From Peronospora farinosa (Eukaryota; Oomycota; Peronosporomycetes; Peronosporales; Peronosporaceae): a DNA stretch of 64,000 nt. A model generated the notes under the pieces. That model searched no databases and had not been told where the DNA came from. It was given only the letters and a program-made list of their open reading frames with translations. Shown here one piece after another: positions 1,068-60,143 of this stretch. The stretch spans positions 124,001 to 188,000 of the forward strand of contig CANTFK010000174.1 of assembly GCA_947646735.1 (NCBI GenBank). The letters are read 5' to 3'. Position 1 is the stretch's first letter. The number at the start of each line of letters is the position of its first letter. The position numbers and the translations under genes were made by a program.

Positions 1068-2340
1068 TTGCAAAACATCGAAAAAGAGACGATGCCGTTG
1101 AAATGTGGTAAGGCTGATGGGTCGCCTGCAAAGGCGCCCATCCAGACCCACACAAAAGGCACGCGCCGCGATATTTCGCAGCCGTTGCTAAGTGTCTCTG
1201 TGACAACGCCGACATCTAATGTCAGCTTGTCAGCAGAAAACACTACTATGGTGCAGATGATGACATGTATCTCATTCTTGACAACAATGAGAGTACACCA
1301 TTGCCATCACCCCAAAGAGGTGATGTGAACAGTGCTCTGATGGGTCATTTGTCCCCATCATTTAAGACACCCAACCTTTAGTAAGCTTCCATGCTTCCTG
1401 ACAGCGAGGGCAATGCCTCTTCGTCTGTTTGAACTAGCGTAACGAATACAACCGAGCTCGGTGTTTTAAAAGAAACAGCCGCGGCACAGCAGTGGGTCGG
1501 CGATTCCAATTGTCTATCTCTGTCAACCCTACGTCTAACGTCTTGACAATCTACAATGAAGAGTCAGACTCAGGCGAGGGTAAGCAAAAAGCCCCTTCGA
1601 CTACACAGTCGTCCTCACTAACACGCCGTCGCAAAGGCGATTACGTGATTGATAGTTTGCCAGAAATGCCACCGCCATCCGAGTGGTCACGCTCGAATGG
1701 CAATAGTGCGACGCTTCTAGAGCGTGCCACTATTGACGCTAAAACGTTTCAGCGTCTTTCCATCATATAAAAGGCAGAGCAAAGCACGAGGTCGTGCTTT
1801 CCCTAACCTCGTCGTGTTGCGTTTGAATGAAAGAACCGACGAATACGAGGAAGAGTTCCTGCGCCGTGTTACACCGCATGAAGATGCAGTGAAACAGCGG
1901 TCGCAGCGTGTCAGATTTCCTATGACGCGTGCGAAAAAAATATTGGGCAGTAATATACCCCCAAATTTTTCTCGTCACGCCGCCACTGCTTGGCCATCAG
2001 GACATAGCAAAGAGAGTGCATCTGGTGCTTCTGCTCGTAAGCAGCCACCAGCCCAGGCACGTCGATACGCAATGCGTCGATCGGTTCCTAAGATTCGAGA
2101 CTCTTCGGGTATCCTTTCCACTGGACAAGAATCTTAAGCTTTTGCTTCGCATGGCGGTGGGCCAACAACCTTCCAACAAGGAATTGTGTGTTCCCAATCG
2201 CACCCACCAACATAGGTGGAGCCCGATAGGAGCGGCGGACACGCCCAGCTGCCTATCTTGTTGTCGCATAGTCTCAGGCGGAGATCGCTGCGCTGCAGAA
2301 AGAGGTGGAGGAAGTTTCTAGTTAAGTCTCGCGACTGACT
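1068..2340 (+). pseudogene. Antisense accessory ORF of family A, degenerate
   Basis: Broken ORFs on the plus strand (1068-1328, 1492-1770, 1724-2137 and a stop-interrupted coiled-coil stretch near 2270-2340) form a remnant that starts just inside the 3' LTR and runs opposite to family A pol. The parts in order are a Ser/Thr-rich N-terminus, an acidic EESDSGEG stretch, a basic RRRKGD patch, an Arg-rich middle and a heptad-like coiled coil near the end. A diverged copy lies at 28250-29700. The segment at about 2023-2140 overlaps the pol chromodomain codons on the other strand. I recognise no database family, and function is unknown. The gene is dead: stops and frame changes separate every block. 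Confidence 0.55.
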
Positions 2341-4189: not shown

Positions 4190-5563
4190 ATGTCCGGAGA
4201 CCCAACACCCAATCCAGCAGAACTCCCAAGATACATCAGCGGGAATGCATCAACCAGCGTCATGGCGCGGCATCTCATACCTTGGTCGCTGTACGACTTG
4301 TCCGGAGCTCACGCTCCGGACTCGCTGTACATGATGCGGGACTACTTCCGCCGATTTCGAAAACTGGGGGAAAGGTCTTGATGAAATCGGGATGAAGCTC
4401 TACAACGTTCTTGGTGTGCCTTCATCCAACGTTGGAATCGGATGCTCGAGGAGGGTAGCAGCTTCCAATTATGGCTCGCCAATCGAGAGGAGCTTCGCGC
4501 GATCACTCCATCGGCGCGCTACGCGAAAGAGTGTGTGAGGATGCTTGGAATGAGGACCGTCTCTGCTTCGTCCATGTCAATGAAGGATGCCAATCTTGTG
4601 ACTCGACTCCACGCCAACTCATGACGAATGGCGACGACACATCGCTGAGTGCCACTCAGCGATCGCGAACGAAGTTGGATTGCAAAGTATGAGCGAAGTC
4701 TGAGCGAACGGAGAAGCGCAGTTATTCGCGGTGCGCCTCGCTGGCAGCACCACTCGCGACAGCGGAGTCAATCTCCGCGGGATCATCAGCGCAGGGCAGC
4801 GACACGTTCGCTTGCCCGTCCTGCTTCGCGATTCTCGCCTCGCAATCGTGATATGTATTCACCGCGACGTTCTCGTTCACGGCGTCGTTCTCGTTCGCGA
4901 CATCGTTCTCGTTCGCGTCATCGTTCTCGTTCCCGACGACGTGGATCTCATTATCGCTCTCGTTTGTCACGAGAGCGTTCGCGTGCTCGCCCGCCTTGGA
5001 TTAGTCCGACTTCGTGGCTTTATACGACAGAACCACATCTGGAACGTCACGAAGGAGCGAGGAACGTGGTTCCCATGTATCCTGCTCGGGAGGGAATCCA
5101 AGCCAACGTACTCGGTACCTGCGCACGGATGGAACCGCACGCTTCTCATGAGCCGACTGCAGTGCTGGTTGTGGAGGGTCCTGGTGACCCACAATGTGGT
5201 CTACAATCCAGCGCACCTGTCCCTCCGCATCAACAAGCGGAGGAGGGCCCTCGCGATGGTAGTGCTGGCGTCCTGGTTGCTCAGGACGATGTTGATCAGG
5301 CCGTGAACATAGCTACCGATGCTCAGCTGGAGGCTGAGGCTGCCAGTGAACGTGCTGCCCAGGCGGAGAAGACTTCGAGTGAGACCCGGCAGTCGAACCG
5401 TGAACTGCTCGAACGGATAACGATTCTGGAGCGCCAGGTGCTTGGTCAGGTTCAGACGGGATCGAGACCCCGCCCCATGTCATCGGCGCGTCGAGCACGA
5501 CGGGAAGGCCGTTCGACTTACGAACCCCTGAAGCCGGCGTCGGAGCCAAACCGTGAAGCGTAG
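4190..5563 (+). pseudogene. Antisense accessory ORF of family B (SR-rich, coiled coil)
   Basis: Plus-strand frames at 4190-4381, 4442-4624/4471-4692 and 4649-5563 form one frameshifted gene that starts 80 bp inside the 3' LTR and is read toward pol. The N-terminal part resembles the family D ORF at 27049-27723: a PW-LY start, an RSWCAFI-RW block, a FVHVNEGCQSC Cys motif and a (W)IAKYERSLSE segment. Then comes an Arg/Ser alternating region (about 4850-4985, like SR domains of nuclear RNA-binding proteins) and a C-terminal coiled coil (about 5310-5460; QLEAEAASERAAQAEK). The last 304 codons are open. They overlap, antisense, the pol chromodomain at 5001-5280. No known family is recognised; a nuclear or nucleic-acid-binding role is only inferred from the composition. 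Confidence 0.6.
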
Positions 5564-25721: not shown

Positions 25722-27060
25722 ATGGAGAATCAAAATCACCTCTCTGAGGCGCAACGACTCGCACTCGATAGATTATCTGCGTTCGTTGGGCTCGATCAAA
25801 TCGAGGTCCTGTTGTCCCAAGGCCCAGATGTCCTTAATGCTCGCATTAAGGCCTTTATGCGTTATGTAGCAACGCTACTCGGGCAGGTCCACGACCAGGA
25901 AGCGTCAGTGCGCCTACACAGTACATCCCGGTAACTTTGCCCGATGCAGAGCCAAAGGCTCGCCCACTCGTTTTAAACGTAAAGACCTTTGAGGGAAGGA
26001 TGGAGAAAATCTTCTCCTCTGGATCCGAGAAGTTGAAATGACAATGGATGCCGCCATGCTTGTGTCAGATAAGCAACGAGTTTTCCTGGCCATTTCTAAG
26101 CTCGGTGGAAGAGTTATAGAGTGGGCTCTTACGAGCGATGTCTCTGTTAATGCCGAATTTCCTACATGGGAAATGCTTAAAAAGCAATTGACTTGCGTGT
26201 TTGTACCACCTATCCAGGCTTATTGTGCGCTCTCAAGCTTCTTAGCTACCCGACAGGGTAAAAAAGAATTGTTGGACCATGTCTAAGAGTTGGGAACTTT
26301 CATTGCTGATTTGCAGCAGGACCCTCTGGCAGAGGAAGTCCGAATAACCATTTTCATGGAAGGACTTCGTACTGAGGTCGCCAAAATAGAGGTTTTTTGT
26401 GTCCAGTCTTCTACTTTTGAACAGACAGTGAGCATAGCGTTTAACGCTGAGTTCATATTTAAAATTGCTAGCTATGGTCTACCATGGTATAATTTGAATG
26501 CCTTCAATAGGGCGGAACCCATGGACCTCAGCCATGCGGAAGAAGATGAGCTTCAAGCTGCTGAGCAGCAAGGTAACATCCGTAGATGGTACATGTGCGA
26601 AAGCACTAGGCATCTACGCTCTAGCTGTCCGTTGTGAAAGCAACGTTCAAATCGGCAGAGCCGAAATCCTGCTCCTAGCCAAAAGGCGAGCACGGCAGGG
26701 GAAAATGTCAGCCCCCAGTAGACGCGGGCCTCCCTACTGTGAAAGAACTAAGCTCTGTTGAATCTCTAGGAAGTGAATTTAAACAGGGCTTAGCCACAGA
26801 TGTTTCTGTGGATGCTTCCATGGAACAAGATTACAAGCCAGGCTTGTTAGTTGTGTTGACAACCGTTAAGGGTTTTGAGAAACCATGGTCAATTCTAATT
26901 GACTCAGAGGCGTCAGGTATTATGTTCGACTTCGTTCCCTTTAAGGAATTCAGCTGTATGCTGAGGCGCAGAAGCGCAAGAGGGTGACAGTATCACCGTG
27001 CGCCTCGAGACAGGGGTACGTGTCGCCGTGCCTAAAGTTCCGTTGAACTTAGGTGTGACC
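25722..27060 (+). pseudogene. Gypsy gag and protease remnant
   Basis: Plus-strand gag in several frames. N-terminus from ATG 25722 (MENQNHLSEAQRLALDRL), capsid text (VFLAISKLGGRVIEWALTSD, FPTWEMLKKQLTCVF), one in-frame stop after LLDHV near 26283, and a degenerate zinc knuckle (WYMCESTRHLRSSC, first Cys lost). A protease start follows (PWSILIDSEASGIMF) in which the active-site Gly of D-S-G is Glu. The sequence then jumps at about 27050 to the antisense ORF of family D, so RT through integrase are deleted. Confidence 0.75.
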
Positions 27061-27723
27061 TCCCGAGCGACTCCGAGGCCGAGACCTATTACGAGGCTCG
27101 GAAGCATACGGATGATACGGTTGACAACCTCGGCTACTTGAACACCTTCGGAGATCGTAAGGACGCGCTCTCACTCGCCGTAGCTCGTACACCTGGAGCT
27201 CCGAAAGGCTTCTTTCATAACGGGCAATCCATGGACGAATATGGTCGGGCATGCCTCGCGCACACACCAAGTCGTCCCATTCCTGCCGGACCAGTCGCGA
27301 TCTGCCCACGTTGCACGTTGAACATCCCTCACGAATGTGGACGTAACAAAGGTGATACTCGTCACAAGTCATGCGACAGATGCGCCGACGCAGGTCGCCA
27401 ATAGCGTGTCGATTACGCGTTCCCTCGCGACCGTCTAACCAGGACGTGAAGGAAGTTCCTTCACGTCGGCTCGCGTCCCAGCGCCTGATGAAGGCACACC
27501 AAGACCTCTGCAACGCATCGTTGGTATATGCGTTGTTCGTCGCCTTGCCTCTCACGGTACGGTATCGCGTGAAGAGGTCCTTCATGACCTCCAGTGGCTC
27601 GGGTTCGACAGCACCTTCAAGACCATATAAGCGCCACGGTTTCAAGTCCCCATCCATGAACCTGCGGCTCCTGCTCTCTTCGTATTGTCGCTTGGTGTTC
27701 CCAGTTCTGGTTGTCAGAGACAT
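27049..27723 (-). CDS. Antisense accessory ORF of family D, open 224 codons
   Basis: Minus-strand ORF starting 143 bp from the 3' LTR at 27866 and running away from it, opposite to the element's plus-strand orientation. The N-terminus KPWRLYGLEGAVEPEPLEVM is followed by RSWCAFIRRWDASRREGTSF, FTSWLDGREGTR, a Cys-rich block CRMTCDEYHLCYVHIREGCSTC and PWIARYERSLSE, and ends in Arg/Ser text (NRSRPRSRSGG). The same blocks are recognisable in the family B ORF at 4190-4700. The C-terminal part, probably a longer SR region and coiled coil, is cut by the deletion junction near 27050. The Cys pattern could be a metal site. Function unknown; no known family recognised. Confidence 0.6.
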   Translation of the reverse strand: MSLTTRTGNTKRQYEESRSRRFMDGDLKPWRLYGLEGAVEPEPLEVMKDLFTRYRTVRGKATNNAYTNDALQRSWCAFIRRWDASRREGTSFTSWLDGREGTRNRHAIGDLRRRICRMTCDEYHLCYVHIREGCSTCNVGRSRLVRQEWDDLVCARGMPDHIRPWIARYERSLSELQVYELRRVRARPYDLRRCSSSRGCQPYHPYASEPRNRSRPRSRSGGHT

Positions 27724-39146: not shown

Positions 39147-40803
39147 ATGGGAAAGGAGAACTTGTTGAATTTTCTTTCATTCAACAATTACGCTATGACA
39201 AAGTCAATGCGCGTCGCTGCTAAGGCAGCCGAGAGCTCGGCTGCACGCCTGCTACTGAGGCTTCACAGCCTCAGCCAGCAGACACATTAGTGTCTGCTGG
39301 AAGTCAACATCAGCCTGCAACGCCTGTTGCAGGTTCACGTAGCGCTTCGCCGCGTGAAGATGTTGACCCAGAGTTAGTCGTTGACTACTCTGGTGAGTCG
39401 GATGACGCATCCGACTCAAAGCCACCTGTGTCACTCCCGAGCTCTCCCCGGGGTGATGCCTCGTCGTCAAATCTTACGAAGAGGGATCGTGGTACATTGA
39501 GTGAATTAATGTACCGTGAAATGTTCGGGTCGTCTGATGAATCAGACGACTCGCCAAACGAGTCGAAGGATAGTGACTCGGGTGGGGACCGTAAGGGTGA
39601 TGTCAGTGCTTCTACTGACATCAATAATCATAGTGTCGGTACTTCTGTTGACACTAATGCTCGTGGTGTCGGTACTTCTGTTGACACCACGCAGGAGGCT
39701 TTAGACCGCAACGTATTGCGTCTTGCTCCTGATCGCGAGGCATGGATGCTACCTAAGCATCTGCTTGATCGTTGGTCTGGAAAGACCAACGAAAGGTTCC
39801 CCATACCGTTGTTTGATGCGTCAAAGCTTCATGGCCTTGACGCCAGTGCGAAGAACTTTCGCACTGAGAACGACTATTACATCGATGTGTTTCTTGAACA
39901 TCGATGGTATTGCCCACACAAGAAGCGTGAGGCTGACGCGTTCCTCCAATCTTGGAACGCGTCTTTCCCAACTTTTTTAAACGTTGGGAAAGAGGCTTGG
40001 TTTCAAAGACTTTATGCTAGCCGCAATAAGTTTGAGAAACGAAGTACGTCCGGTGCATGCTATCGTTTGCACCGGTTATCTATAGAGGCACGCCTGTTAT
40101 GCCTCTCTTGGGGCGACTCATGCCCGGGGTGCCTGAGCACCTCATCAAGAGCGCCTAAGGAGGCGTACCTCCTTAATGAGCCCTTAAAGCTCACATCTCT
40201 TCCAAGATGCGCGAAGGGATTGCTACTTTTCAATCCCTTTACGAGCGCGCTGGGCGCTCGCTTTCCGATGTTCCTTCACCATCGGGTGCCCCTTGTCGTA
40301 ATGTTCGACAAGGCCGGGAACGTCGGCCATCAGTTGGGCCCGAGGTTCCCAGCTATCCGCCGAAGGCGGATAGCCACGCCACCGGACGAGATAACTCGTC
40401 CGACGTCCCTTCACCTCGCGGTGATTTAGCAAGCGTTCCACGAAGGAGCGCTTCCCACCATGAGAGTCTACCAGCGGATGCGGTGGTGGATGGAAAACCC
40501 TTTCCAATTCTTTCGTCTGACTTGTCTGCTGAGTTACACGGGCAAACCCGTGTAACTCTTGAGCTCCGTTGTGATAACAGTCACGAACGAGACAAGCGTC
40601 GCCGCTTAGAGGACATTGTGCGACAGCTCGGGTTTGACCATGAGAGGTCTCGGGCAAACAATGCTGTCGCACTATTGGAGAATGAACGGCGACTTCATTC
40701 TCTGAGTAACGAGCTGGCGACAGCTCGTCAGGAGATCGTCCAATATCATGGGACGATCGCATCTCTACACGACCAGATATCGAATCTGGTTCGTGACAAT
40801 TAG
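39147..40803 (+). pseudogene. Antisense accessory ORF of family G, two frameshifts
   Basis: Starts 48 bp inside the 3' LTR with ATG 39147 (frame closing at 39290), continues in the frame 39250-40429 and then in 40207-40803. Layout: short basic start, Ser/Pro/acidic disordered region (VVDYSGESDDASDS, SSDESDDSPNES), imperfect repeats HSVGTSVDTNARGVGTSVDT, a folded-looking part with many aromatic residues and Cys (HRWYCPHKKREADAFLQSWNASF ... SWGDSCPGC), Pro/Ser repeats (SDVPSPSG, SDVPSPRG) and a C-terminal coiled coil (about 40600-40795). The S/WG-x-CPGC segment recalls the EGCxxC motif of families B and D. The last 580 bp overlap pol chromodomain codons on the other strand. Family unknown. Confidence 0.6.
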
Positions 40804-40861
40804 AATCTAAAGGGGATTCTTGAGAATAATGGCTATCTTTGTCGTTCGAAGGAGCCGCTTA
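40223..40861 (-). pseudogene. Family G pol tail with chromodomain, behind a TAA
   Basis: The frame that encodes the integrase C-terminus stops at a TAA (40861-40859), then stays open for about 210 codons. Near its end is a chromodomain: SFVERLLNHREVKGRRTSYL, VRWRGYPPSADSWEP, LMADVPGLVEHY. The stop makes the tail untranslatable unless read through. It lies completely under the plus-strand accessory ORF. Confidence 0.75.
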
Positions 40862-42243
40862 CTGAACGTACGGACGAAGACGTCCTACGTAAAACGTAGG
40901 ATGCGTACGCATCCTGCGTGGTAACTCGATCGTGTATGCGTTGCCTAGGCGGCGCAATACACGAAACGGGCTGATGTACTTGGGCAACAATTTATTGCTG
41001 CCCACGTTAGTCACTACATGTTTAGGTAGGTTTACTGTTGACAGTAAAACTAAATCACCTTCAATAAATGTTTGATCATTTGCCCTTCCATTATTGTCTG
41101 CGTTTCGCTTTTGCTTATCCACCGCTTCTGCGATGGAGTCTTGCACGAAGCGGACTACCGCTTCACGAGTCAACAGGAAATCCTCAGCTGACTCGTTGCT
41201 TTTGGCTGCAGTGCATTGTGAGTGCACTGCAGAGATATCGGTTACTAATTCAGCAAGAACATTACTGACCTCACTTGTGATACCTCAAACGATGATGATA
41301 TCTTCAGCATCGTTATCAGTAAGAGCGTCATCGCTCTTACGTCTTCTTCTTCACCGAAGTCGAATGGTACGACTTCGGTTACTTTCGCGTCGACCATAAC
41401 GCCGTCGCGTGATGAGCAAGAGCCAGATTGGTTCTCGCTCGAGAGAGTCCCTCCCCCCTTAAATTAGAGTCACCCTCTACTAAGGTGGGACACGTGGATG
41501 GCGAAGGCCATTCACGTAGAACGGTGTATGCGTCGTGGAAGCATGCGCTGAGTTGTTGATGGCGAATTCGACCATCGACAAGAACTCACTACAACTCGTA
41601 AACGAGTGGACGTACCCTCGACAAATCTCTTCGAGGACGCGATTGGCGCGTTCGGTCTGACCATCGGTTTCTGGATGGTCAGAAGTAGACATTGTGAGCC
41701 GTGTTTCAAGTATTTAAACCACGGAACGCCAAAACTCAGCCGTAAATCGGAGGCGCTTGGAGCTGCCACGTGTAAAGCAAATTCGAGTGGGTCCCTATCG
41801 GACACAAGTTCACGGGGTAACCCGTGCAATCGAAAGATTGTATCGATTAACACTCAAGCACAGCCCTCTGCTGTGATCGACTCAGGTACAGCAACAAGAT
41901 GTACCATCTTGCTGAACCTGTCCACAAACACGAGAATACCATTATTTCCGTGAGCGTCTTTGGGAAACCCAAAGACGAAGTCCATTGATACGGACTCCCA
42001 GCACTCTACCGGAATAGGTAGAGGCTGCAATGGTGCACGGAGTGAAGGACTAGGCTTCACTCGTTGACACACCTCGCAAGCACGCACGTACTTGCCCACG
42101 AACTTATACTGGCGTGGCCAGTAAAAGTCGCGACTGGCCGTGAGGTAAGTCTTCTTACGGCCTCCATGCTCGCTTATTCGTGCATTGTGACATTCAAACA
42201 TGATCCATAACCTGAGATCATGTTGTGGCGTTACCAACGACAC
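40859..42243 (-). pseudogene. Family G integrase
   Basis: 42243-41854: zinc-binding region (CEVCQRVKPSPS) and first catalytic Asp (SMDFVFGFP). 41853-41480: core with SDRDP, then a 38-39 bp foreign insertion at about 41751-41789 that shifts the frame, then DHPETDGQTERANRVLEE with the catalytic Glu and EFAINNSAHAST. 41227-40859: C-terminal region (EGDLVLLSTVNLPKHV, SPFRVLRRLGNAYTIELP, HPTFYVGRLRPYV). Other shifts occur near 42240 and 41470. Confidence 0.85.
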
Positions 42244-44918: not shown

Positions 44919-46090
44919 TGTGGCGAAGTGAAAGAGTGAATTTCGCCAAGTGTGATCGCATATTTTCGGTTAAGTCCGAAATGGCCAATATTAATGAGTC
45001 GATCTCGTGGCCAATATTGATGAGTCGCGATCTCGCAGAAAGGTTTCAAGACGATGTCAAATAGGATGGAAAACAGTGAATGGAGTAGTTTGCACTTCTA
45101 TGTGGGGTCAAATATGGCCTAGAAACTACGCTATTGCGATCTCCAGTATTTCCGATGGCGATCCGCGTGAACGCGATCGCTAAGGAGGAAGATGGGTACA
45201 TCCAAGCATGTGGAAGACGGTCTGGTGTGGATCACGTCGCTATGGAGGACTGGAATGGTGGATATGAAATGTCACATTGATGAACTATCTCACATGACCT
45301 GAGAAACGGTGAAGAAGACAAGTCGTGATCCGGCGGATCGCGATCCGATATTAATTATTTAGTACCGCGATCTGGTACTAAAATGGTATTATATCCGAGT
45401 GAGGTAGCGATCCAGATCGCGGCTATATTGGAGTGGACCACATTCCGAGATCTGATTTTTTCCGAAAGGGCGATACATGGCAACAGATCCTGAGCTACAG
45501 ATAGTCAAGATCATAGGTTTTGGTATTTGATTGGTTAACATTAACAGAGTTCAATTTGCTTCTAAGTACACGTGTCGACTTCTCTTCCGGGCTGGATTCT
45601 TTGGCCTCCCGACGTCTCAAGGAAGTCTACATACTACGCAAGTCATATCCCTGGATTGTTTGGCCAGGGATTACAAGAACTCTCAACAAAACAACTCAAG
45701 CTGCGATTGGACGCAGAGGACTAAGAATTCCAGATACAAGATCGCGAGACGGCTCAAGTGGTCAGAAGGCAAGCGGATCAAGTATCTACATTTTTGGACA
45801 AGGCGATCTCAAGGGAGATCAGGGCGACTCAAACAGAGCACCCCAAGAACAACTGCGATCGTGTGAGGAATTCCACGCGATCGCCCCCCCCCCCACCTAT
45901 CCCTAACACAATCAAGTTCAACATCGACTCAAGTCTACCGAGAAGAGAGCAACCCGTCCTACCGACGGGTACACAAGGTGAGGAAGGCTATACACACGGA
46001 ATCGGGGTACCCCCTCCGTTAGTCGGTCGTCCGGGCGCCAGTGGAGAGTTGGGATCGCATCAGCAATTTTGCGAATCCCACTCCACCACA
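44919..46090 (+). repeat. Family F 5' LTR
   Basis: 1172 bp. Contains one copy of the AGTACC-GCGATCT-GGTACT inverted-repeat unit (45361-45379), where the 3' LTR has five. The long frame at 45520-45906 is repeated in the 3' LTR and has no recognised domain. On the internal side, A-TGGTGCGCGTGCCCGG (46092-46107) is a primer-binding-site candidate beginning TGG; I cannot assign the tRNA. Confidence 0.92.
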
Positions 46091-48374: not shown

Positions 48375-48418
48375 GACGCTCGCCAGGTTGGAAATCTGGT
48401 ACGAGCCGAGCGTTCTAG
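48371..48418 (+). promoter_or_regulatory. Inverted repeat spanning the in-frame gag TAG
   Basis: Bases 48371-48382 (CTAGGACGCTCG, containing the TAG at 48372-48374) pair with 48407-48418 (CGAGCGTTCTAG) over 12 positions with one G-T pair. A nested CCAG/CTGG pair sits inside the loop. Downstream of the TAG the same frame is open into protease. The arrangement resembles a stop-readthrough or regulatory hairpin, but function is unproven. Confidence 0.5.
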
Positions 48419-49256
48419 GCTCTGCATTTATGCATTTGTGGAAAGAAGATCGACAGATCAGGGCGTTTACACTCAGATCGACCCGAATAATACATGTGAA
48501 GATTCAAAATTTCTGCGTTCAATATCAAGCGTCGTAAGAGCTGATGAATATGCCCGATCGCCTGCGAAAATGGAGCTCGACTTAGCACCAGGTGAATCAC
48601 GGGGATATTGGAAATATCATACCCCAGGAAAATGGTTCAAGCAAGCCAAGGCAACGGGCAAGATCAACAATGAAAAGGCGATTAAGTTGTTTGATTCTGG
48701 AGCCGAAGTCTCAATCGTCGACACCACCTTTGCTCGTAAGGTAGGATGTGTCATTGACGAGAGTCAGAGGCAAGAATGTGTTGGGATTGGTGAGAACATA
48801 TACATGACGGACGGTCGTACAAGAATCAAGATCACGCTGAATGTATCGCTAGTCTATTATTTTGATGCTTGGGTAGGAGATCAAGTAGGTCAAGACGCGA
48901 TCCTAGGAATGGATTTTATGGTCCCAGCTGGAATACGCCTGGATTTAGCAGATGGAACACTTTGTTTGCCTGATGAGGTCAGGATACTTCTGAATGGACG
49001 AAGACCCCCTAACCGGGCGACCATACAAGCGATCACAATTCCAGACCAATATGTGGTGATTCCCGTGGGCAAATCGACCGAAGTGAAGATCGGAGTTAGT
49101 CCTCCTAAAGCCAAGATCTGGGTGAGGCGCGATCCGAAGTGGGTACCTACAGTAACTACGGGACCAGGTCAGATCAAGTATCTACAGCTGACTAATATCG
49201 GCGATCAAGAAGTGACTTTAAGTCATGGATCGCCAAGGGAATGGTTGCTGATATGA
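48375..49256 (+). CDS. Family F aspartic protease region
   Basis: In frame with the gag tail across one TAG, open from 48375 (first usual Met only later). Retropepsin domain: active site IKLFDSGAEVSIVD, flap region, and the DAILGMDFMVPAGIRLD box typical of Gypsy proteases, about 110-120 residues. Ends at TGA 49254-49256 in a 16-base overlap with the next frame (-1). It cleaves the polyproteins. Both catalytic motifs look intact. Confidence 0.85.
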   Translation, partial: DARQVGNLVRAERSRLCIYAFVERRSTDQGVYTQIDPNNTCEDSKFLRSISSVVRADEYARSPAKMELDLAPGESRGYWKYHTPGKWFKQAKATGKINNEKAIKLFDSGAEVSIVDTTFARKVGCVIDESQRQECVGIGENIYMTDGRTRIKITLNVSLVYYFDAWVGDQVGQDAILGMDFMVPAGIRLDLADGTLCLPDEVRILLNGRRPPNRATIQAITIPDQYVVIPVGKSTEVKIGVSPPKAKIWVRRDPKWVPTVTTGPGQIKYLQLTNIGDQEVTLSHGSPREWLLI

Positions 49257-50329
49257 TACCTCGGTCCCCAGGATATGTCTCGGTGGGATCGCGTCGGTAT
49301 AACGAATGGCAGACATTAGCGTTCGAAGCGACAACGGATCGAGAAGAAGAACTACTGGAGGAATATACCGGACCGCTAGTGGACCAACCTTCGTACCCTA
49401 CGCCGAAGAGGATCTTAACACGCTCAAAAAATGAAGCAGAAGAAAGGACTACGGAAACAGTGAAACCCACGACACGATCCAATGATGAATGCGATGCGAT
49501 AAGAGGAATCGGTGGCAACAATGTAGAAGATCGGGTGATCGAAGATGAAAGCGAGCAAGTAGCGCAATCTCCATGGGTAATCAATGCGATCAGAGGGATG
49601 TCAAATGTCGATCACGTGAAAGGGCCGTGGGGTGAAGATAATTACACTCACAATAACTATACACCGAAATGTATGGAGCGCGATCCGACAATTGAGGACT
49701 GCGATCTGGCTGATCTGGCAATCAATGACCGCGATCTGGCCGATCTGGTAATTAATAACCGCGATCTGGCCGATCTGGATCGCGATAACCCCGATCCGAC
49801 AATTGAGGACTGCGATCTGGCTGATCTGGATCGCGATGACCGCGATCTGGCCGATATGGTAATTAATAACCGCGATCTGGCCGATCTGGATCGCGATCTG
49901 CGAGAACAAGAGCAAGCTAGTGATACGACGATTATCAACGACGAATTTATTCTAGCCGGAGGAAGTGTAAAGATGAAGCCTGAAGACTCGATGTATTGTC
50001 ATGAGAGTGGTGAATTGTATGCCGAAGATGTGGATCAGCATATGGCTGTCTTGCCTGAGATTGTGTCATCCACCGAAGAAGTTACGACTGATGATATCCA
50101 AGTGGGCAATCCGGGAGTTCCTTTAACCAAGGACCAAGAAAGTCTACGGCAATTAATTTGGGCGAACCGACACTTACTCATTGGCAAAGGAAACGCGCTT
50201 CCTCCTGCAGCTCGAGGAGCAGTATGTGATATCGATGTTGGTGGAGCACACCCGATCGCACAACGAGTACGACCGGTCGCTCCCAAATTTCGCGAGAAGT
50301 TAGATGACTTAATCAAAGGATTACTATAA
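49241..50329 (+). pseudogene. Family F linker with DLADL repeats and RT edge
   Basis: Begins MIPRSPGYVSVGSRRYNEWQ, the usual post-protease segment, in the -1 frame to the protease. Residues about 150-225 are RDLADLVINNRDLADLDRD-type repeats, encoded by DNA packed with GCGATC/GATCGC words. It ends RVRPVAPKFREKLDDLIKGLL at TAA 50327-50329. The frame is open on the other side of this TAA into RT motif text, so the stop truncates RT. Confidence 0.8.
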
Positions 50330-53300
50330 GCCAGGATTATCCAGCCGTCGACATCACCATGGGCTTCGCCGATTGTGGTAATCATAAAAAAGAATGGTGT
50401 CGACATTCGGTTATGCATTGACTATCGGCGGGTGAATCAATTCACGAGATTGATGGTGTATCCTATGCCTCTGATTAGCGAATTATTGCAAGATATGGAT
50501 AAAGCTATGTGGTATTGTTCGTTGGATATGGCCAGTGGATTTTGGGTCGTGGAAACGACCGAGCGAGCAAGGATGATTTCTGCTTTTATCACGCCGTCAG
50601 GCCTGTTCGAGTGGTTACGAATGCCGTTTGGGCTAAAAAACGCTCCGCAGATTTACCAACGTCTAATTGATAATGCACTGTATGGATATCTCAAGATCGG
50701 TACGGATCCAAACGCAATTGCCACAGGATCACTCGACTCCGCTGATACGGTAACGGGATCGCCAAAGCTGGTTGATGTATTTACAGAAGGCGAACCGGAT
50801 ACTAGACAGAAGCCATCTGTGCTTGGCCGAAGGTCATATATTGATGACATACTAATTCCAGCAACATCGTGGGCCTCCTTATATGATAAGGTAAAGCGAT
50901 TGTTAGAAGTATGCAACGAATGGAATTTGTCGATCTGTCTCGCTAAAAGTTTTTGGGGACGACGTAAGGTGGACTACCTGGGTCATCAAGTCTCACTGGC
51001 AGGAATCGAAGCTAATCCAAAGGATTTGGGATCGCTGGTGAATATTCCGTTCCCAAAAACGTTGCGATCGATGCAATCGTTTCTGGGAAGCTTGAATTAC
51101 TATAGTCGATTTGTCGAAGACTTTGCGATTTATGCGTCAGTGCTATATGAATTAAGGGAAGCAGATTTCCATGAAATCCGCTGTTCTGACAAGATGAATG
51201 CATTGGATTCGACTGTCGCAACCAGGAATGATTCAGATCAAAAGTTCGATATTGGGGACGATCCAGATCCAGAAGGACGGACTCGATGGGAAAAAGCGAT
51301 GATCGCATTTACCATGTTGAAAGCCAAGATCGCTAATACCCCGATCCTCAGACACTTCGATCCAGATCGGCCTCCGGTAATTGTCGTATATGCGAGTAAA
51401 TGGGCCGTTTCAGCAGCTTTATTGCAGGAGTATGATGGTATATATTGGCCAGTTACTTTTACAAGCCGAACGCTGAAGCCTAATGAAATCAATTACGGAA
51501 TGGTCGAGAAGGAGATACTAGCATTACTTCGGATTTTGGATATATGTCATTGCATGCTAGTTTCGCGAGAGATTAAAGTTCTTACGCGTTTCTCGACGAT
51601 GGCCTGGTTGGTGCAATCCTTCGGTCTCAATGGCAGGCTAGGTAGGTGGGCCGCATTATTATCGACTTGGACTTTGGAGATCAAGAAATGTGAAAAGGGC
51701 GAAGATGAAATGCTTGGTGCCCTGGCTGCAAGTGTGACTCCCCGTGAAGAAGTCGACGAAGTGTTGATTGCGATCGCTCCCCGGAAACAGCCAAGGCAAA
51801 CTCTAAGTATGCCACCGCCTACGGTGGAAGAAAATGAAAGTCTCTTGGTCGTCAGTTTCGATGGATCGGCACGAACCAAGCGAAAGGGTGGATCATACAG
51901 TGCGATAATATGGAAACTTCCGGAGTGGACTATTGTGGCTGCTGCATCGGAATATGCAACGGACTTAATAGTGAACGAAGCCGAATATCGGGGTTTACTA
52001 TTAGGCTTTGATCTGTTGGAGAATCAGACTAGGGGACGCGTTATTTTTTGTGGCGACTCCAACCTAGTGATTCGACAGATGCGGGGTGAAATTGATTGCA
52101 AGGCTCCTGGACTGCAGTTGTTGCGACAGAAAGCAATAGAGAAGCTTCGATCATGGCCGATCCATGAGTTCTTACATATGAAGCGCGACTGGAACCAAAG
52201 TGCAGATCGACTGGCGAGTACTGCTTTACAGAAGGAACAAGGTGTGGTCATCACTTCGGAAGGAGATCGCCAAGATCTCATTACTCTTAATAGACTGGAT
52301 GAGTTGTTGAAGTCGAAGCAGACCGAATCGGTGGTTAAAGTGGCTGCGATTACCAGAGCAACCCGGAGAAGACGTCAACCACCCGAGATCTTGCAAGAAG
52401 AATTTGTGCAGCAAATGCGAAGTGAACGTATACGACAAGCTCAAGATGAGGATTGTTGGATCGCTAACCTAAAGATTTTTCTGATTGGTGATATAACGAA
52501 TCTCAGTATGGAAGAAGCGAACTCATGCGCCAAGATTGCAAGTGATTATGAGGTGGATGAAAGCGATATTCTACATTTTTGCCCGGGAGCTGTGAAAAAT
52601 TCGGACGATCTCGATGGAATTGCTCGTTTGGTGGTGCCAGAAACTCTTCAGCAAGATTTTCTACACCACTACCATGTCAGTTTGGAAGGAGGGCACCAGG
52701 GAATCGGTAGGACGTATCAACGGATCCGATCTCGTTTTCATTGGAGAGGCCTGTATCGCAGTGTACAACGATATGTGAGCGAATGCACTGACTGCGAGAC
52801 TGGAAAAGGACGTCCGGTTATTAATGGAGAGTCTCCGGGAAATTTACAAGCTACTTATCCGTTCCAGATTATTGCCATGGATCATATTCCGTCGCTGCCT
52901 AGATCTTTCAAAGGCAACACTGAATTATTGATCTGGGTCGATCTCTTTTCGGGCTATGTGGTTGCCAAGGCGAGCAAATCTAGAACAGCTCAGACGATCG
53001 CCGAGAATTACGAGGAGTGTATCTTTCGACGATTCGGTGCGAGTGAAGCGATACGGCACGATCGAGAGCCCGGGTTTATGTCGGATTTTTTTCGTGCGTT
53101 CAATCGACTTATTGGGCAAAAGCAAAGGGCAACGATGGCATATCGCCCTCAAGCGAATGGAACTGCGGAACGTATGGTGCAAACTCTGACTCGTGCATTA
53201 AAGATGTATGTCTCTGACGTTAATCAACAAGACTGGGATGAGTATGCCGAACGTCTAACTTTCGCAATCAATACCGCTCAAGATCGGGTGCGCGGCGAAA

Positions 53301-54046
53301 CGCCATTTTTCTTGATTCATGGTTGGGACCCGAGATCTACGTTGGAAGCTACGTTACCATTAGGAAGTACTAGGCGTCGAGATCGCGATCCACGTAGGTG
53401 GCGATATCATATGCAGCGGCATTATCAGCGGGCGAGAGAAGCAGTAAATGAGAGACTCAGGACTGCGATCCAAACACGTGCTGATCGCCACAATGAAGAT
53501 CTCAAGCCTCACGAAATTGAACCAGGGGCGCAAGTCTGGTTATATTTGGATCGTGTGAAAGAAGGGTACGCTCGAAAGCTAGCACATATGTGGCATGGAC
53601 CTTTTCGAGTAAAAGAAATGTGTGGAGATCACGCTGTCCGACTGGAGATTGCTGGTACGCCATATCGATTATTTCCCGTCGTACATATATCCAAGTTGAA
53701 GAAAGTGAAGACGTTCCCTGATCGTCCAAAAAATTTACTGACGATCGAAGAAGAATATCGATTCGATTTTGATGAAGCGCTTGTGCCAGAAGACAGTTTT
53801 GAAGGTAATCTGGGAGACGATGAATTCGAAGTGGAAAAGATTGTGGATGTACGATCTGATAGAAAGACACGTTTTGGACGAGTACATAGACAGTTTAAAG
53901 TCTACTGGAAAGGTCATGCTAAACCATCCTGGGTGGATGAAGCCGACTTAAATTGTGGTGCCTTATTGCGAGATTTTGAACGTGGCAAGATTAGCCGGAA
54001 TCGTTTTGAAGTGATGCAATCACATGAAGAGGGATCTGGTGGCTAA
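50330..54046 (+). CDS. Family F RT, degenerate RNase H, second RNase H, integrase, chromodomain
   Basis: 1223 codons from Met 50375, preceded in frame by QPSTSPWASPIV (RT start) after the TAA at 50327. RT 1-255: RLCIDYRRVNQ, SLDMASGFW, MPFGLKNAP, YIDDIL at 155-160, with about 40 extra residues between NAP and YIDD. RNase H 1, 325-455: expected catalytic Asp residues read Tyr (VVYAS) and Arg (LTRF), and ADALSR is lost. Second RNase H, 490-620: Asp in SFDGSA, Glu in NEAEYRG, Asp in CGDSNLV and Asp in QSADRLAS. Integrase 755-1100: zinc HxxxH..CxxC, Asp 836, Asp 896, Glu 932. Chromodomain 1150-1205 (VEKIVDV, FKVYWKGHAKPSWVDEADL). The dual RNase H layout is known from plant Tat elements and has been reported in oomycetes. 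Confidence 0.9.
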   Translation, partial: ARIIQPSTSPWASPIVVIIKKNGVDIRLCIDYRRVNQFTRLMVYPMPLISELLQDMDKAMWYCSLDMASGFWVVETTERARMISAFITPSGLFEWLRMPFGLKNAPQIYQRLIDNALYGYLKIGTDPNAIATGSLDSADTVTGSPKLVDVFTEGEPDTRQKPSVLGRRSYIDDILIPATSWASLYDKVKRLLEVCNEWNLSICLAKSFWGRRKVDYLGHQVSLAGIEANPKDLGSLVNIPFPKTLRSMQSFLGSLNYYSRFVEDFAIYASVLYELREADFHEIRCSDKMNALDSTVATRNDSDQKFDIGDDPDPEGRTRWEKAMIAFTMLKAKIANTPILRHFDPDRPPVIVVYASKWAVSAALLQEYDGIYWPVTFTSRTLKPNEINYGMVEKEILALLRILDICHCMLVSREIKVLTRFSTMAWLVQSFGLNGRLGRWAALLSTWTLEIKKCEKGEDEMLGALAASVTPREEVDEVLIAIAPRKQPRQTLSMPPPTVEENESLLVVSFDGSARTKRKGGSYSAIIWKLPEWTIVAAASEYATDLIVNEAEYRGLLLGFDLLENQTRGRVIFCGDSNLVIRQMRGEIDCKAPGLQLLRQKAIEKLRSWPIHEFLHMKRDWNQSADRLASTALQKEQGVVITSEGDRQDLITLNRLDELLKSKQTESVVKVAAITRATRRRRQPPEILQEEFVQQMRSERIRQAQDEDCWIANLKIFLIGDITNLSMEEANSCAKIASDYEVDESDILHFCPGAVKNSDDLDGIARLVVPETLQQDFLHHYHVSLEGGHQGIGRTYQRIRSRFHWRGLYRSVQRYVSECTDCETGKGRPVINGESPGNLQATYPFQIIAMDHIPSLPRSFKGNTELLIWVDLFSGYVVAKASKSRTAQTIAENYEECIFRRFGASEAIRHDREPGFMSDFFRAFNRLIGQKQRATMAYRPQANGTAERMVQTLTRALKMYVSDVNQQDWDEYAERLTFAINTAQDRVRGETPFFLIHGWDPRSTLEATLPLGSTRRRDRDPRRWRYHMQRHYQRAREAVNERLRTAIQTRADRHNEDLKPHEIEPGAQVWLYLDRVKEGYARKLAHMWHGPFRVKEMCGDHAVRLEIAGTPYRLFPVVHISKLKKVKTFPDRPKNLLTIEEEYRFDFDEALVPEDSFEGNLGDDEFEVEKIVDVRSDRKTRFGRVHRQFKVYWKGHAKPSWVDEADLNCGALLRDFERGKISRNRFEVMQSHEEGSGG

Positions 54047-54160
54047 CGAAGATCGAGTGTTGGGGATGGTATAATATGCAAGAAGGTTGCATAGGATGGT
54101 GGAAAGGAAATTTGTGTGTAATGAGTATGGCGATCGAAGGTCTGGAAGACGAGATCGCGG

Positions 54161-57034
54161 CTAAAGAAGCCCAACAAAAGAAGACAATTTTAACGAAAAG
54201 GAGGAACAAAATGGAATTGTATTGAACAAACAAGAAGTGTTCTCAGATCCCGAATGCTGTTTGGGAAAGAATTTACTGGATAAACGGGCGAGGGATGAAC
54301 TGGGGTGATCCGCGATTGAGGACCGATATCGGTTCCGCCAAGGCTCCGCAGAATCCAATAACGACAGTGCAGTAATCAGGTTGGGAATGTTTTTCTGCTT
54401 GCAATCCAAACCAGGATACCATGGTCGCACTTCTGCGTACACTGGAAAGTGGAGGAAGTATGGATCTAACATAATATCCAGATCACAGTGTCCTTCGATC
54501 ATCCCTTGGAGAATAACGCGAAGAATAGTCTTCCAGCGGGGTCCAGATCTCGACCGACGCTGCTTGCGTTGCTGACAAAATTGCGCCAGCTCTGGATACT
54601 CCTTCCGAAGCTCGCGGGAGATATACAGGAAGTGGGTTGCCTCCCACAAGGCTTGCCTATGGCGATCTTCATATTCCAGGTAAATGTCCGCCAGATCTTT
54701 GAACCAACCGGTCAGCGGGAAAGAGATGGGAGCAATCGGCCGACGAGTGACGTTCCACGGTTTCTGATCGTAAAGCGCAGTAACTTGTGCCGGGGTGATC
54801 AGTCGGGGAATCCACTCAGAATCAAGAAGAGATTTGAGATTGGCTTGAGGGGTGAAGATATACCCTCTCGGTCGGGACAAGTGTCGATAGAAGAACTCCA
54901 CTCCCAATTCGGCAACACTGGTCAGACTGACCCGTCGGGCGGACCATGGAGCGACCTGAGTCGACGATCGGGGCTTTCGCTCACGATATCCTGGGATCCA
55001 CACATCACGTGATTTTTGGAGATCAGGCAGGTCGGCGTATTGAGCGGGAGTGAGCAACTGGTTTATATCTTCACGGATGTCACTGGAAACGCTAATCTTC
55101 CCGTCCGAGTCGCTAGAAGGTTCGCCAAAAAGGTCGACCTTAGAAATCTTGGTCGTAAGGCTAGGGGGCGTAGCAGGACTCGAGACTGGTGATTTTTTGG
55201 AGGGTGGGCTACCATTGTGAATTATGATAGGGGACTGAGACGATCCGGTGTTGCCAGAGAGTTTCGTCGTGGTGTTGCGACGCCTCGTGGTGGAACGCGA
55301 TCCGGATAGAGCAGCAAGTGTAGCGTCCTCGGGATCGGAAGACCAGCCGTCATACTCAGAGTCAGGCGAAGGCGAGGGACACGTTTTGCGTTTCTTTTTA
55401 GCTTTCGACGAAACATTGGGTCGCGTTGTAATAACGGATCGCACCGACTTGGCAGACCGTTCTGAGTTACCAGATCGCGTTAAATTACCAGATCGCGGCG
55501 GAGTACCAGATCGCGGGGAAATACTAGATCGCGCTGAAGTGCCAGATCGCGCTGAAGTACCAGATCGCGCCGGAGTGCCAGATCGCGTTAAATTACCAGA
55601 TCGCGCCGGAGTACCAGATCGCGGGGAAATACTAGATCGCGCTGAAGTGCCAGATCGCGCTGAAGTACCAGATCGCGCCGGAGTGCCAGATCGCGTTAAG
55701 TTACCAGATCGCGGTGGAGTACCAGATCGCGCCGAAGTACCAGATCGCGCCAAAGTATTAGATTGTGCCGAAGTACCGGATTGCGCCGGAATTTCAGATC
55801 GCGTCGAAGTCCCAGATCGCGCTGGAATGCCAGATCCCTCCGAGGTCGCAGATTGAGCAGAAGTACCGAAAGCGCTGCGGGGACGTTTACAGGGGACGCC
55901 CAGAGTCGGTGAAGATGACGCACGTTTGCGATTGGGTGACGAGGGATTGGAAAGCGCGAGAAGGCTAGTCGGAGAAGGAAGTAAGCCCGTAGCCAATTCT
56001 GCCAGATGCGAACGAAGTAAATCTCGATCCTGGATGGCCAGATCGCGCTCTGCCTCTCGATCTGCAACTTCGGTACGAAGTCGATCCAAAGCTGCGTCGT
56101 TCCGAATACTCGTACTCAGGAGGCGATCATGATCAAGCTCGAGCGCGCTCAGTGTCTCTTGCAGTTGTTTCGCGGCTTGCTGGGCCTGAGAACGAGCTCT
56201 CTTGTACTTGGATGCCTTGCTTTTCATGCGTCGAAAGTCAGCGGCCAAAGCACTGTCTGCTGTATTACGCTGTGCGAGGATGGAGTCCAGTTGCTGTTGG
56301 AGGGACGCGATCTGCTGCCGGAATTTTCCTTCCAGAGTTCGCTGAAGATTGGCCGCCTCACGGCGGAATTTATCCTGCAGGCGATGTTTCTCTGCATTGG
56401 CTCGAAACAAGGCATTCTTCAGATCGGCGATCTCCTGAGACTGATCCGTTAGCTGGTTCAGTTCTTCGTCGAGACCTTCGGCCATGTGGAGAGCGGCATC
56501 AAGTTGTTGACGCAACTCTTCATCTCGACGCAAGACGAATGTGCACAGTCGAGGCACCAACTCGTGATACGAGTTGAGTTCCGTCTCCAGCTGATTTCCA
56601 CGAAATTCCTGCTCCTGCAAGGCATTTTCCATGGAGTGATAGCTTTCCACGATGGTATCCTGGGCTTCCAGGCGGTCATACAATGAAGAAACCAACGAGA
56701 TCGCGTTCTGACGATCTGCAACGGGAGGAAGGATTATCCGGGTAGACGGGAGCAAGATACGCGATCCGGTAGAGGAACCCATCGTTGGATCGCGCGTAAC
56801 GAGCACACCAGTTTGGGGGTGGCGATCGTTTTCGGGTGTAGATCTGGCCATAAGGGACGAAGTGACGAGAAGAGTGAAGCGAGACAGTGCACAGTTAGGC
56901 CAACACTGTATGTGGGCTATCGGTGCAGGGGACGATTGTGGCGAAGTGAAAGAGTGAATTTCGCCAAGTGTGATCGCATATTTTCGGTTAAGTCCGAAAT
57001 GACCAATATTAATGAGTCGCGATCTCGTGGCCAA
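54161..57034 (-). CDS. Family F antisense accessory protein, 896-957 residues
   Basis: One uninterrupted minus-strand ORF between pol (ends 54046) and the 3' LTR. The longest form starts at 57034 inside the LTR; ATG 56851 (MARSTPENDRHPQ) is the first outside it and gives 896 residues. Numbering the long form: coiled coil about 130-345 (ELNQLTDQSQEIADLKNALF, REAANLQRTLEGKFRQQIAS), basic KRKRASSS-like patch, then about 20 ARSGTSARSGTP-type Arg-Ser-Gly repeats (about 390-530), a KKKRKTCPSPS motif that could be a nuclear signal, acidic Ser-rich text, and a C-terminal folded-looking domain from about 640 (INQLLTPAQYADLPDLQK, LGVEFFYRHLSRPRGYIFTP, WFKDLADIYLEYEDRHRQALW). No known family is recognised. 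It is the only intact large frame of its kind in the window and is convergent with pol. Likely nuclear, by composition only. Confidence 0.75.
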   Translation of the reverse strand: MATRSRLINIGHFGLNRKYAITLGEIHSFTSPQSSPAPIAHIQCWPNCALSRFTLLVTSSLMARSTPENDRHPQTGVLVTRDPTMGSSTGSRILLPSTRIILPPVADRQNAISLVSSLYDRLEAQDTIVESYHSMENALQEQEFRGNQLETELNSYHELVPRLCTFVLRRDEELRQQLDAALHMAEGLDEELNQLTDQSQEIADLKNALFRANAEKHRLQDKFRREAANLQRTLEGKFRQQIASLQQQLDSILAQRNTADSALAADFRRMKSKASKYKRARSQAQQAAKQLQETLSALELDHDRLLSTSIRNDAALDRLRTEVADREAERDLAIQDRDLLRSHLAELATGLLPSPTSLLALSNPSSPNRKRASSSPTLGVPCKRPRSAFGTSAQSATSEGSGIPARSGTSTRSEIPAQSGTSAQSNTLARSGTSARSGTPPRSGNLTRSGTPARSGTSARSGTSARSSISPRSGTPARSGNLTRSGTPARSGTSARSGTSARSSISPRSGTPPRSGNLTRSGNSERSAKSVRSVITTRPNVSSKAKKKRKTCPSPSPDSEYDGWSSDPEDATLAALSGSRSTTRRRNTTTKLSGNTGSSQSPIIIHNGSPPSKKSPVSSPATPPSLTTKISKVDLFGEPSSDSDGKISVSSDIREDINQLLTPAQYADLPDLQKSRDVWIPGYRERKPRSSTQVAPWSARRVSLTSVAELGVEFFYRHLSRPRGYIFTPQANLKSLLDSEWIPRLITPAQVTALYDQKPWNVTRRPIAPISFPLTGWFKDLADIYLEYEDRHRQALWEATHFLYISRELRKEYPELAQFCQQRKQRRSRSGPRWKTILRVILQGMIEGHCDLDIMLDPYFLHFPVYAEVRPWYPGLDCKQKNIPNLITALSLLDSAEPWRNRYRSSIADHPSSSLARLSSKFFPKQHSGSENTSCLFNTIPFCSSFSLKLSSFVGLL
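55470..55850. repeat. 18-24 bp tandem repeats in the accessory ORF
   Basis: About 20 units of CCAGATCGCGCYGRAGTA with in-frame variation; a block of about 120 bp (GTTAAATTACCAGATCGCG...) is itself duplicated at about 55476-55580 and 55582-55690. Encodes the Arg-Ser-Gly array on the minus strand. Confidence 0.85.
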
Positions 57035-58216
57035 TATTGATGAGTCGCGATCTCGCAGAAAGGTTTCAAGACGATGTCAAATAGGATGGAAAACAGTGAA
57101 TGGAGTAGTTTGCACTTCTATGTGGGGTCAAATATGGCCTAGAAACTACGCTATTGCGATCTCCAGTATTTCCGATGGCGATCCGCGTGAACGCGGTCGC
57201 TAAGGAGGAAGATGGGTACATCCAAGCATGTGGAGGACGGTCTGGTGTGGATCACGTCGCTATGGAGGACTGGAATGGTGGATATGAAATGTCACATTGA
57301 TGAACTATCTCACATGACCTGAGAAACGGTGAAGAAGACAAGTCGTGATCCGGCGGATCGCGATCCGATATTAATTATTTAGTACCGCGATCTGGTATTA
57401 ATTATTTAGTACCGCGATCTGGTACTAATTATTTAGTACCGCGATCTGGTACTAATTATTTAGTACCGCGATCTGGTACTAATTATTTAGTACCGCGATC
57501 TGGTACTAAAATGGTATTATATCCGAGTGAGGTAGCGATCCAGATCGCGGCTATATTGGAGTGGACCACATTCCGAGATCTGATTTTTTCCGAAAGGGCG
57601 ATACATGGCAACAGATCCTGAGCTACAGATAGTCAAGATCATAGGTTTTGGTATTTGATTGGTTAACATTAACAGAGTTCAATTTGCTTCTAAGTACACG
57701 TGTCGACTTCTCTTCCGGGCTGGATTCTTTGGCCTCCCGACGTCTCAAGGAAGTCTACATACTACGCAAGTCATATCCCTGGATTGTTTGGCCAGGGATT
57801 ACAAGAACTCTCAACAAAACAACTCAAGCTGCGATTGGACGCAGAGGACTAAGAATTCCAGATACAAGATCGCGAGACGGCTCAAGTGGTCAGAAGGCAA
57901 GCGGATCAAGTATCTACATTTTTGGACAAGGCGATCTCAAGGGAGATCAGGGCGACTCAAACAGAGCACCCCAAGAACAACTGCGATCGTGTGAGGAATT
58001 CCACGCGATCGCCCCCCCCCACCTATCCCTAACACAATCAAGTTCAACATCGACTCAAGTCTACCGAGAAGAGAGCAACCCGCCCTACCGACGGGTACAC
58101 AAGGTGAGGAAGGCTATACACACGGAATCGGGGTACCCCCTCCGTTAGTCGGTCGTCCGGGCGCCAGTGGAGAGTTGGGATCGCATCAGCAATTTTGCGA
58201 ATCCCACTCCACCACA
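56937..58216 (+). repeat. Family F 3' LTR
   Basis: 1280 bp. It matches the 5' LTR except for about four substitutions, small gaps (the GAGTCGCG spot and the C-run at 58012-58020) and four extra copies of a 27-bp unit at 57381-57507. The accessory ORF's longest start lies here, so antisense transcription would begin in the LTR. Confidence 0.92.
57381..57507. repeat. Five copies of a 27-bp inverted-repeat unit
   Basis: AGTACCGCGATCTGGTACT followed by AATTATTT, starting at 57381, 57408, 57435, 57462 and 57489. Each unit holds the 6-base inverted repeat AGTACC/GGTACT around GCGATCT. Only one copy is present in the 5' LTR, and the 108-bp difference accounts for the whole length difference between the two LTRs. 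Confidence 0.92.
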
Positions 58217-59685: not shown

Positions 59686-60143
59686 TGTAATGGGGCATCC
59701 TCCGACTATACTGATTACAGTATAGTCTACTTTCACTGATGACAGTGAAAGCAGGTGCCTCAATTACCTCTCTTACACAAGAGGCAGAGGAAGCTTTAGT
59801 TCTAAACGATACGCTTATAAGTAGGGAATAAAAGAACTGTATTTAATATAGTTAAGTATCGAATAAAACTAATCTGTTATAACCTATGTTTAACTATATT
59901 ATACTACAACTATGTATGTTGACAACTTGCCCTCCACTCATTGCGCGCGTCCATCGGTCATTGGTCAGCGCGTTGGTTGATATGATAACCCACATCAACC
60001 AATGAGAGGGCATCTCCAACTTTAAGGAGATCTAGGGACAATATTATAAGAAAAGATAATGTCAAATATTATTAGTTATAATAATATTTTTATTGACACT
60101 TCATATGAGTGTCAATATTATGTAAAGGGCTCACCCCGTTACA
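59686..60143 (-). repeat. Right (5') LTR of family G
   Basis: 458 bp partner of 38648-39099, followed by the GATGA duplication (60144-60148). On the minus strand the internal side reads CC-TAGTAGCACTTCGTGG, a one-base variant of the family D primer-binding site. Confidence 0.92.

Follow-up and report, generated by a model that had tools for sequence, protein, structure and literature searches.

A stretch of 64,000 nucleotides from the oomycete Peronospora farinosa (assembly GCA_947646735.1, contig CANTFK010000174.1, positions 124,001 to 188,000), analysed here as the window (G000:C40:124001-188000 of a 46.9-Mb genome), contains a Ty3/Gypsy retrotransposon, element F, in which a protein gene formerly under purifying selection lies on the strand opposite to gag-pol, between pol and the 3' long terminal repeat (LTR). 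We regard this gene as probably an accessory gene of a Chronos-like element, encoding a putatively nuclear protein that would favour its own element. The original prediction had postulated a single such gene in five Gypsy families of the window (A, B, D, F and G). The antisense accessory genes are at least two, differing in layout: B, D and G have another one, distinct from that of F, which overlaps pol at its chromodomain end.

Element F occupies 44919-58216 (13.3 kb). Its LTRs, 1172 (5') and 1279 bp (3') in length, show 4 mismatches over 1169 aligned columns. The features on which the analysis relies are as follows, in window coordinates.

44919..46090, plus strand: 5' LTR of F, with the flanking repeat CGGT, read by eye.
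49681..49897, plus strand: tandem array of 30-bp units in the gag-pol linker of F; the units contain CGCGATCTGG.
50375..54046, plus strand: pol of F, with RVT_1, RT_RNaseH, RVT_3, integrase, SH3_Tf2-1 and chromodomain.
54164..56851, minus strand: antisense gene of F, 896 aa from the ATG at 56851.
55468..55836, minus strand: tandem array of 18-bp units coding for RSG-type repeats, with 15 exact CCRGATCGCG.
56852..57034, minus strand: open run 5' of the ATG, extending 97 bp into the 3' LTR.
56938..58216, plus strand: 3' LTR of F, holding a 27-bp tandem array at 57359-57509.

The order of the pol domains places F among Chronos-like Ty3/Gypsy elements. Within the pol frame, PF17917 matches at 329-430, PF13456 at 495-616 and PF00385, the chromodomain, at 1151-1202 with an E-value of 0.0002 that lies under the curated cut-off. 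The RVT_3 domain is an archaeal-type RNase H, in which an Arg was read by eye where a His is expected, while the aspartates of the native RNase H seem to be replaced when the translation is read by eye against the known motif. Loss of these aspartates is stated for Tat, Chronos and Archon (PMC10508981). An in-frame stop (50327-50329) stands immediately upstream of the pol frame in the window copy.

That the antisense gene of F is real, as predicted, was decided by codon statistics on a minus-strand frame, 54161-57034, of 957 codons without a stop. This frame had been called intact over its entire length; it is indeed open, but its true start is the first ATG, at 56851, which lies 86 bp from the 3' LTR and so agrees with the start predicted next to that repeat. 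The run upstream of this ATG is probably not translated. Nine other full-length matches each contain one TGA and are otherwise without stops, the TGA being at the identical place in all seven F loci fetched. Because the other full-length copies keep this TGA, the last 23 codons (54164-54232) represent a stop loss in the window copy; neither they nor the upstream run into the LTR are ancestral. Full-length matches make up 10 of the 78 matched pieces in the genome, all ten being open. The copies were located via the antisense gene itself, so that the sampling covers copies that have it. The gene and pol are arranged tail to tail in each of eight loci, one of them that of the window, where the gene is enclosed by the pol end (54046) and the LTR (from 56938) without overlapping pol. 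The position between pol and the 3' LTR claimed for all five families is thus correct for F, but not for A, B, D and G, whose antisense frames extend into the 3' end of pol.

A protein search with F returned five proteins, namely four relatives and one low-complexity match. The relatives are 39-44% identical and 747-871 aa long, cover 93-94% of the query in three cases and 41% in one, and stop about nine residues before the stop position of the F copies. The search scored 7998 candidates, those sharing most words with the query, and the arginine/serine (RS) repeats may have displaced others.

Selection was measured as the ratio of nonsynonymous to synonymous substitutions (dN/dS) by Nei-Gojobori counts, with L002 as the reference copy. 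In three diverged copies (86-91% identical) the ratio in the gene frame is 0.42 (L063), 0.38 (L064) and 0.41 (L065), and is not near 1, the value that would have spoken against the gene. The same copies give 0.93-1.36 in frames +1, +2 and -2, and 0.71-0.93 in frame -0. Constraint is strongest in the conserved C-terminal domain (0.18-0.21, 95% interval 0.11-0.35); the coil yields 0.41-0.45, and the RS part (codons 301-500, containing the 18-bp array) 0.67-1.07. For residues 501-612 the ratio is 0.33-0.45, but the intervals are wide. The F antisense gene is a protein gene formerly under purifying selection. An antisense frame could also stay open as a mirror artefact, owing to the codon usage of pol or to repeats of low complexity. 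F does have a simple RS array, and mirror frame -1 of the three copies also has a lowered ratio (0.47-0.55, with 25-28 stops), but F lies off pol and its selection signal resides in a complex domain. The artefact is refuted for F and scarcely credible in general.

The F protein is predicted to consist of a long N-terminal coiled coil, the RS array, basic clusters resembling nuclear signals and the conserved C-terminal domain, which is probably helical. An SMC-type coiled-coil match covers the coil with an E-value of 9.3e-5, far below the cut-off of that model, and for the relative P0003 the sole Pfam match is a weak ZapB coil. The protein has an isoelectric point of 10.0 and contains the clusters KRPR and KKKRK. 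The antisense proteins of F, B and D have isoelectric points of 9.9-11.0, and that of G 8.3; clusters of the K-K/R-x-K/R type occur in F and G and none in B and D, whose proteins contain 17% arginine. Hydropathy indicates no membrane segment in the antisense proteins of F, B, D or G. An env-like gene was considered for F and rejected, given the antisense strand, a 19-residue hydropathy maximum of 1.27 and this lack of a membrane segment.

As an accessory gene, the F gene would have its start at the 3' LTR or slightly within it and be read opposite to gag-pol, its protein being produced from an integrated copy. The protein would enter the nucleus as an oligomer and may there bind the DNA or RNA of its own element and so promote its expression or integration, a role that has been suggested for the antisense open reading frames (ORFs) of plants. 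Several observations weigh against this account. The function is deduced from composition and analogy, no Pfam family matches the F antisense protein at E 0.1, and its conserved domain is modelled poorly (pLDDT 51). Seven copies of more than 98% identity (L062 and L003-L008) give dN/dS values of 0.62-1.71 without a sign of selection, as expected of young copies after insertion. The selection result is carried by just the three diverged copies, each with 3-7 in-frame stops; these are dead copies and selection acted on their ancestors. Finally, the relatives come from the scored candidates only.

A second property of F concerns a short DNA word. Counting both strands, F has 71 copies of CGCGATC where 3.9 would be expected, and the remaining 50.7 kb of the window has 7, with 7.3 expected. 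After removal of the RS array and the 3' LTR, 41 occurrences remain in F (3.3 expected, or 5.8 under a second-order model), split 23:18 between the strands; gag-pol of F holds 26 (2.4 expected), and D, G and B hold two each (2.8, 1.1 and 1.9 expected). The extended word, CGCGATCYGG, contains GATC. Tandem Repeats Finder detected three arrays in F, with units of 27 bp (LTR), 30 bp (gag-pol linker) and 18 bp (antisense gene); they are otherwise unrelated, yet the word is present in each of the seven consensus units listed. Outside F, the window lacks this 10-mer altogether, and so does the F pol frame (50375-54046). It occurs twice in 70 other loci (240 kb), as compared to 5-27 times per locus in 12 F loci, and 2538 times genome-wide against 152 for the reversed word, in clusters among the matches listed. 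Silent sites inside the word are seldom changed: a symmetric count gives 2 changed site-copy pairs out of 84, compared with 152 out of 1078 elsewhere (P 0.0007), or 2 changed sites out of 42, compared with 115 out of 436; an initial one-sided count had given 0/84 and 154/1078. The difference is seen within the array (1/59 in the word, 23/112 outside it) and is not significant beyond the array (1/25 against 129/966).

By analogy with the VANC proteins of VANDAL21 transposons, the F protein or a host factor might bind CGCGATCYGG and thereby protect or activate the element, the RS array being maintained for its DNA sites no less than for the protein it encodes. The enrichment of the shorter word in F, near expectation elsewhere in the window, points in this direction, as does the F-specific 10-mer of the three arrays with its few silent changes. 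On the other side, the silent-site result derives almost wholly from the array, where the alignment tends to anchor on the word, and the pol frame is devoid of the 10-mer. DUF1985 is the VANC protein family, and no Pfam match to it or of VANC type was obtained in F or P0003. Such self-recognition is rather unlikely as the explanation of the gene. A further reading, doubtful at best, extends it: an antisense-coded nuclear protein of Chronos-like elements would recognise a family-specific word and counter silencing by adenine methylation of its own family only, the word having been spread by three separate arrays via the LTRs, the gag-pol linker and the protein's own coding sequence. Two Phytophthora species display adenine methylation and no detectable cytosine methylation (PMC6211444), to which the GATC in the word might be linked.

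The antisense genes of the other families are located in the window as follows.

1438..2134, plus strand: A antisense remnants, partly opposite the A chromodomain at 2022-2291 (minus).
4190..5563, plus strand: B antisense gene (remnant), overlapping B pol at 5313-6071 (minus).
27049..27723, minus strand: D antisense gene fragment, adjoining a probable LTR at 27875-28180.
39195..40896, plus strand: G antisense gene, frameshifted in the window copy, overlapping the 3' end and chromodomain of G pol.

The D piece is inverted relative to the remainder of D, and the G chromodomain lies within the frame 40223-40762 (minus). More complete frames were obtained elsewhere in the genome: stop-free antisense frames of 560-633 aa in 6 of 20 fetched G loci and of 471 aa in 7 of 30 D loci. 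A is a further large family with at least 150 matches; among those listed, 23 lie in frames of 484-537 aa without a stop.

In the D locus L060 a pol frame of 1895 codons is opposite the antisense frame over 352 codons; the overlap amounts to 257 codons in B and 223 in G. In these three families the overlap contains the whole chromodomain, and no more than about 30 bp separate the end of the antisense frame from that of the SH3 domain. The phase, first codon position opposite first, is identical in A, B, D and G. Resampling of synonymous pol codons in D, G and B gave probabilities of zero antisense stops, given the pol protein, of 0.0004, 0.0018 and 0.0004, respectively. The frames are therefore open beyond chance, which upholds this part of the prediction and argues against a mirror artefact, as do the 9-24 stops per 352 codons found in the same phase further upstream in D pol. 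Changes between B and D were counted on nucleotide alignments; alignments guided by either protein lean toward that protein. Opposite the pol tail they number 70/55/96 (of 142) at antisense positions 1/2/3, and there the antisense frame is the constrained one, with young D copies showing the same lean (69/39/71). Opposite the linker the counts are 58/57/69 (of 115-116), a weak contrast that leaves the antisense frame perhaps constrained. Opposite the chromodomain they are 26/37/27 (of 65-66), a weak indication that pol is the constrained frame there. This last pattern, with changes following the pol codons, is what the artefact would produce, and young G copies show no position preference in the overlap (25/29/28).

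The overlap also bears on the view that the antisense transcript acts as a regulatory RNA that pairs with the RNA of gag-pol and fuels silencing by small RNAs, the reading frame being secondary. The predicted transcript of B, D and G would overlap pol by 223-352 codons, and in Phytophthora infestans small RNAs of both orientations are distributed along Gypsy elements (PMC3522703). Against this stand the protein-level selection in F, the preservation of the relatives as proteins across large distances, and the lack of pol overlap in F, all of which render such a role improbable.

The antisense proteins of B and D are 46% identical across 161 aa, in accordance with the shared blocks originally named (RSWCAFI-RW, EGCxxC and IAxYERSLSE), and by this similarity the two families carry one homologous gene. 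The B/D protein has 20 database relatives, and all 17 with a species assignment are from Phytophthora or Peronospora. G contains the CPGC region attributed to it and is probably a remote relative of B/D. With hidden Markov models (HMMs) of the G and B/D domains, the medians (3.6 and 5.2 bits) barely exceed the 99th percentile of shuffles, single shuffles reaching 7.0 and 15.1; hhalign gives E-values of 0.016-0.024 for these domains, no better than the 0.03 of F against G (one direction), and with whole proteins places the best match outside the domain. Since these sequence signals are weak, the link of G is mainly one of layout and pol kinship. Identity of the reverse transcriptase to that of D is 79-83% for B, 64-66% for G and 23% for F, and identity of the integrase is 41-50% for A and 32% for F. 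Between the F and B/D antisense proteins no BLAST match was obtained, and hhalign of their domains gives E-values of 0.08-0.34; the HMM medians of the F domain fall at the 62nd-95th percentile of shuffles (62nd-83rd against B/D). The A antisense protein shows no HMM signal to the other families. The order of parts in F, coil first and conserved domain last, is reversed relative to the B/D/G genes. The idea of a single gene in five families is not supported: F lacks a clear sequence signal to B/D or G, belongs to another Gypsy lineage and has the reversed order.

The G protein has 132 relatives at E-values up to 1; among the 120 listed, 109 are from P. matthiolae and 3 from P. effusa, and the identity of the G-type protein to the three Peronospora effusa proteins is 79-93%. 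The great age proposed for the gene accordingly stands for the B/D type, which is old in Peronosporales (Phytophthora and Peronospora), and the G type is present in other Peronospora, but it does not apply to a single gene. One G-type cluster comprises 1335 members in one species, which identifies a repeat rather than a host gene. It is consequently very improbable that the antisense genes are captured host genes carried as cargo, even though transduction is known in LTR elements (PMC7264820). The five F matches likewise include no host relative, no dedicated search for one having been made.

A number of other observations were made in and around these elements. F is nested in element G (38647-60143), whose LTR matches are 38648-39089 and 59686-60124, with 3 mismatches over 439 LTR columns and an apparent 5-bp flanking repeat, GATGA, read by eye. 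The few LTR mismatches make both insertions look young. The 27-bp array at 57359-57509 is longer in the 3' LTR of F than in the 5' LTR, and such a difference within one insertion implies that it expanded or shrank after insertion. Arrays of 33 bp with a similar unit, GGGAACCCC..GTTCGACC, are found in the gag-protease part of B (9062-9415) and D (35690-35864). At G000:C36:52200-62000 (L059/L061), B-type elements stand in tandem with a period of 7,365 bp and probably have one LTR in common. Related plus-strand stretches, 76-84% identical in pieces at the DNA level, lie either side of the element cluster (17302-19419 and 61113-62954). The ORF of the first gives a PexRD54_WY (oomycete effector WY) Pfam match barely over the cut-off, and the second is broken into two ORFs. 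An 807-codon ORF at 22075-24498 (minus), with a ZZ zinc finger (E 6e-8), is possibly a host gene.

Among the known systems close to F are the antisense additional ORFs (aORF-3R) of plant LTR elements, represented by Grande gene23, RIRE2, Retand ORF4 and PvRetro13. F shares with them the opposite strand, the location between pol and the 3' LTR and a conserved protein, together with SMC-like coiled-coil matches and tandem repeats in the same region and, as in plant Tat elements, an archaeal-type RNase H in pol (PMC7264820; PMC11963269; PMC10508981). It differs from them by its oomycete host, the chromodomain in pol and the lack of a shared protein family; Transposase_28 (PF04195), known from the Retand antisense ORF, has no Pfam match in F at E 0.1 or in P0003. 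In B, D and G the difference extends to the overlap with pol. The domain set of F (reverse transcriptase, native RNase H, archaeal-type RNase H, integrase and chromodomain) is that of Chronos (Ustyantsev et al. 2017, PMC5348765), to which F adds the antisense gene and the DNA word; the term 'antisense' is absent from the main text of that source. We place F with the plant aORF-3R genes as a variant of them; in the literature searched, no antisense gene was found described for its lineage. HBZ of HTLV-1 is likewise an antisense gene of a retroelement, entered from the side of the 3' LTR (PMC7264820; PMC11963269), although no bZIP family match exists in F. With VANC/VANDAL21 of Arabidopsis, F has in common an accessory gene and a short word that is dense in the element and spread by tandem repeats, and its protein, like VANC, combines a conserved part with a repeat-rich variable part; VANDAL21 is, however, a DNA transposon, binding has been demonstrated there, and its word is mainly non-coding (PMC5735166). 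The roles of antisense accessory genes in plant LTR retrotransposons are described as unknown in PMC7264820 and PMC11963269, and the element-wide word of F offers a direct handle on what the antisense protein does. The B/D/G type constitutes an unusual overlapping pair: the chromodomain and a second protein are encoded on opposite strands, and constraint seems to pass from one strand to the other along the overlap. In F, an oomycete element has, apparently independently, the pair found in plant Tat elements, an archaeal-type RNase H and an antisense gene, and the recurrence of this pair makes a selective reason likely.

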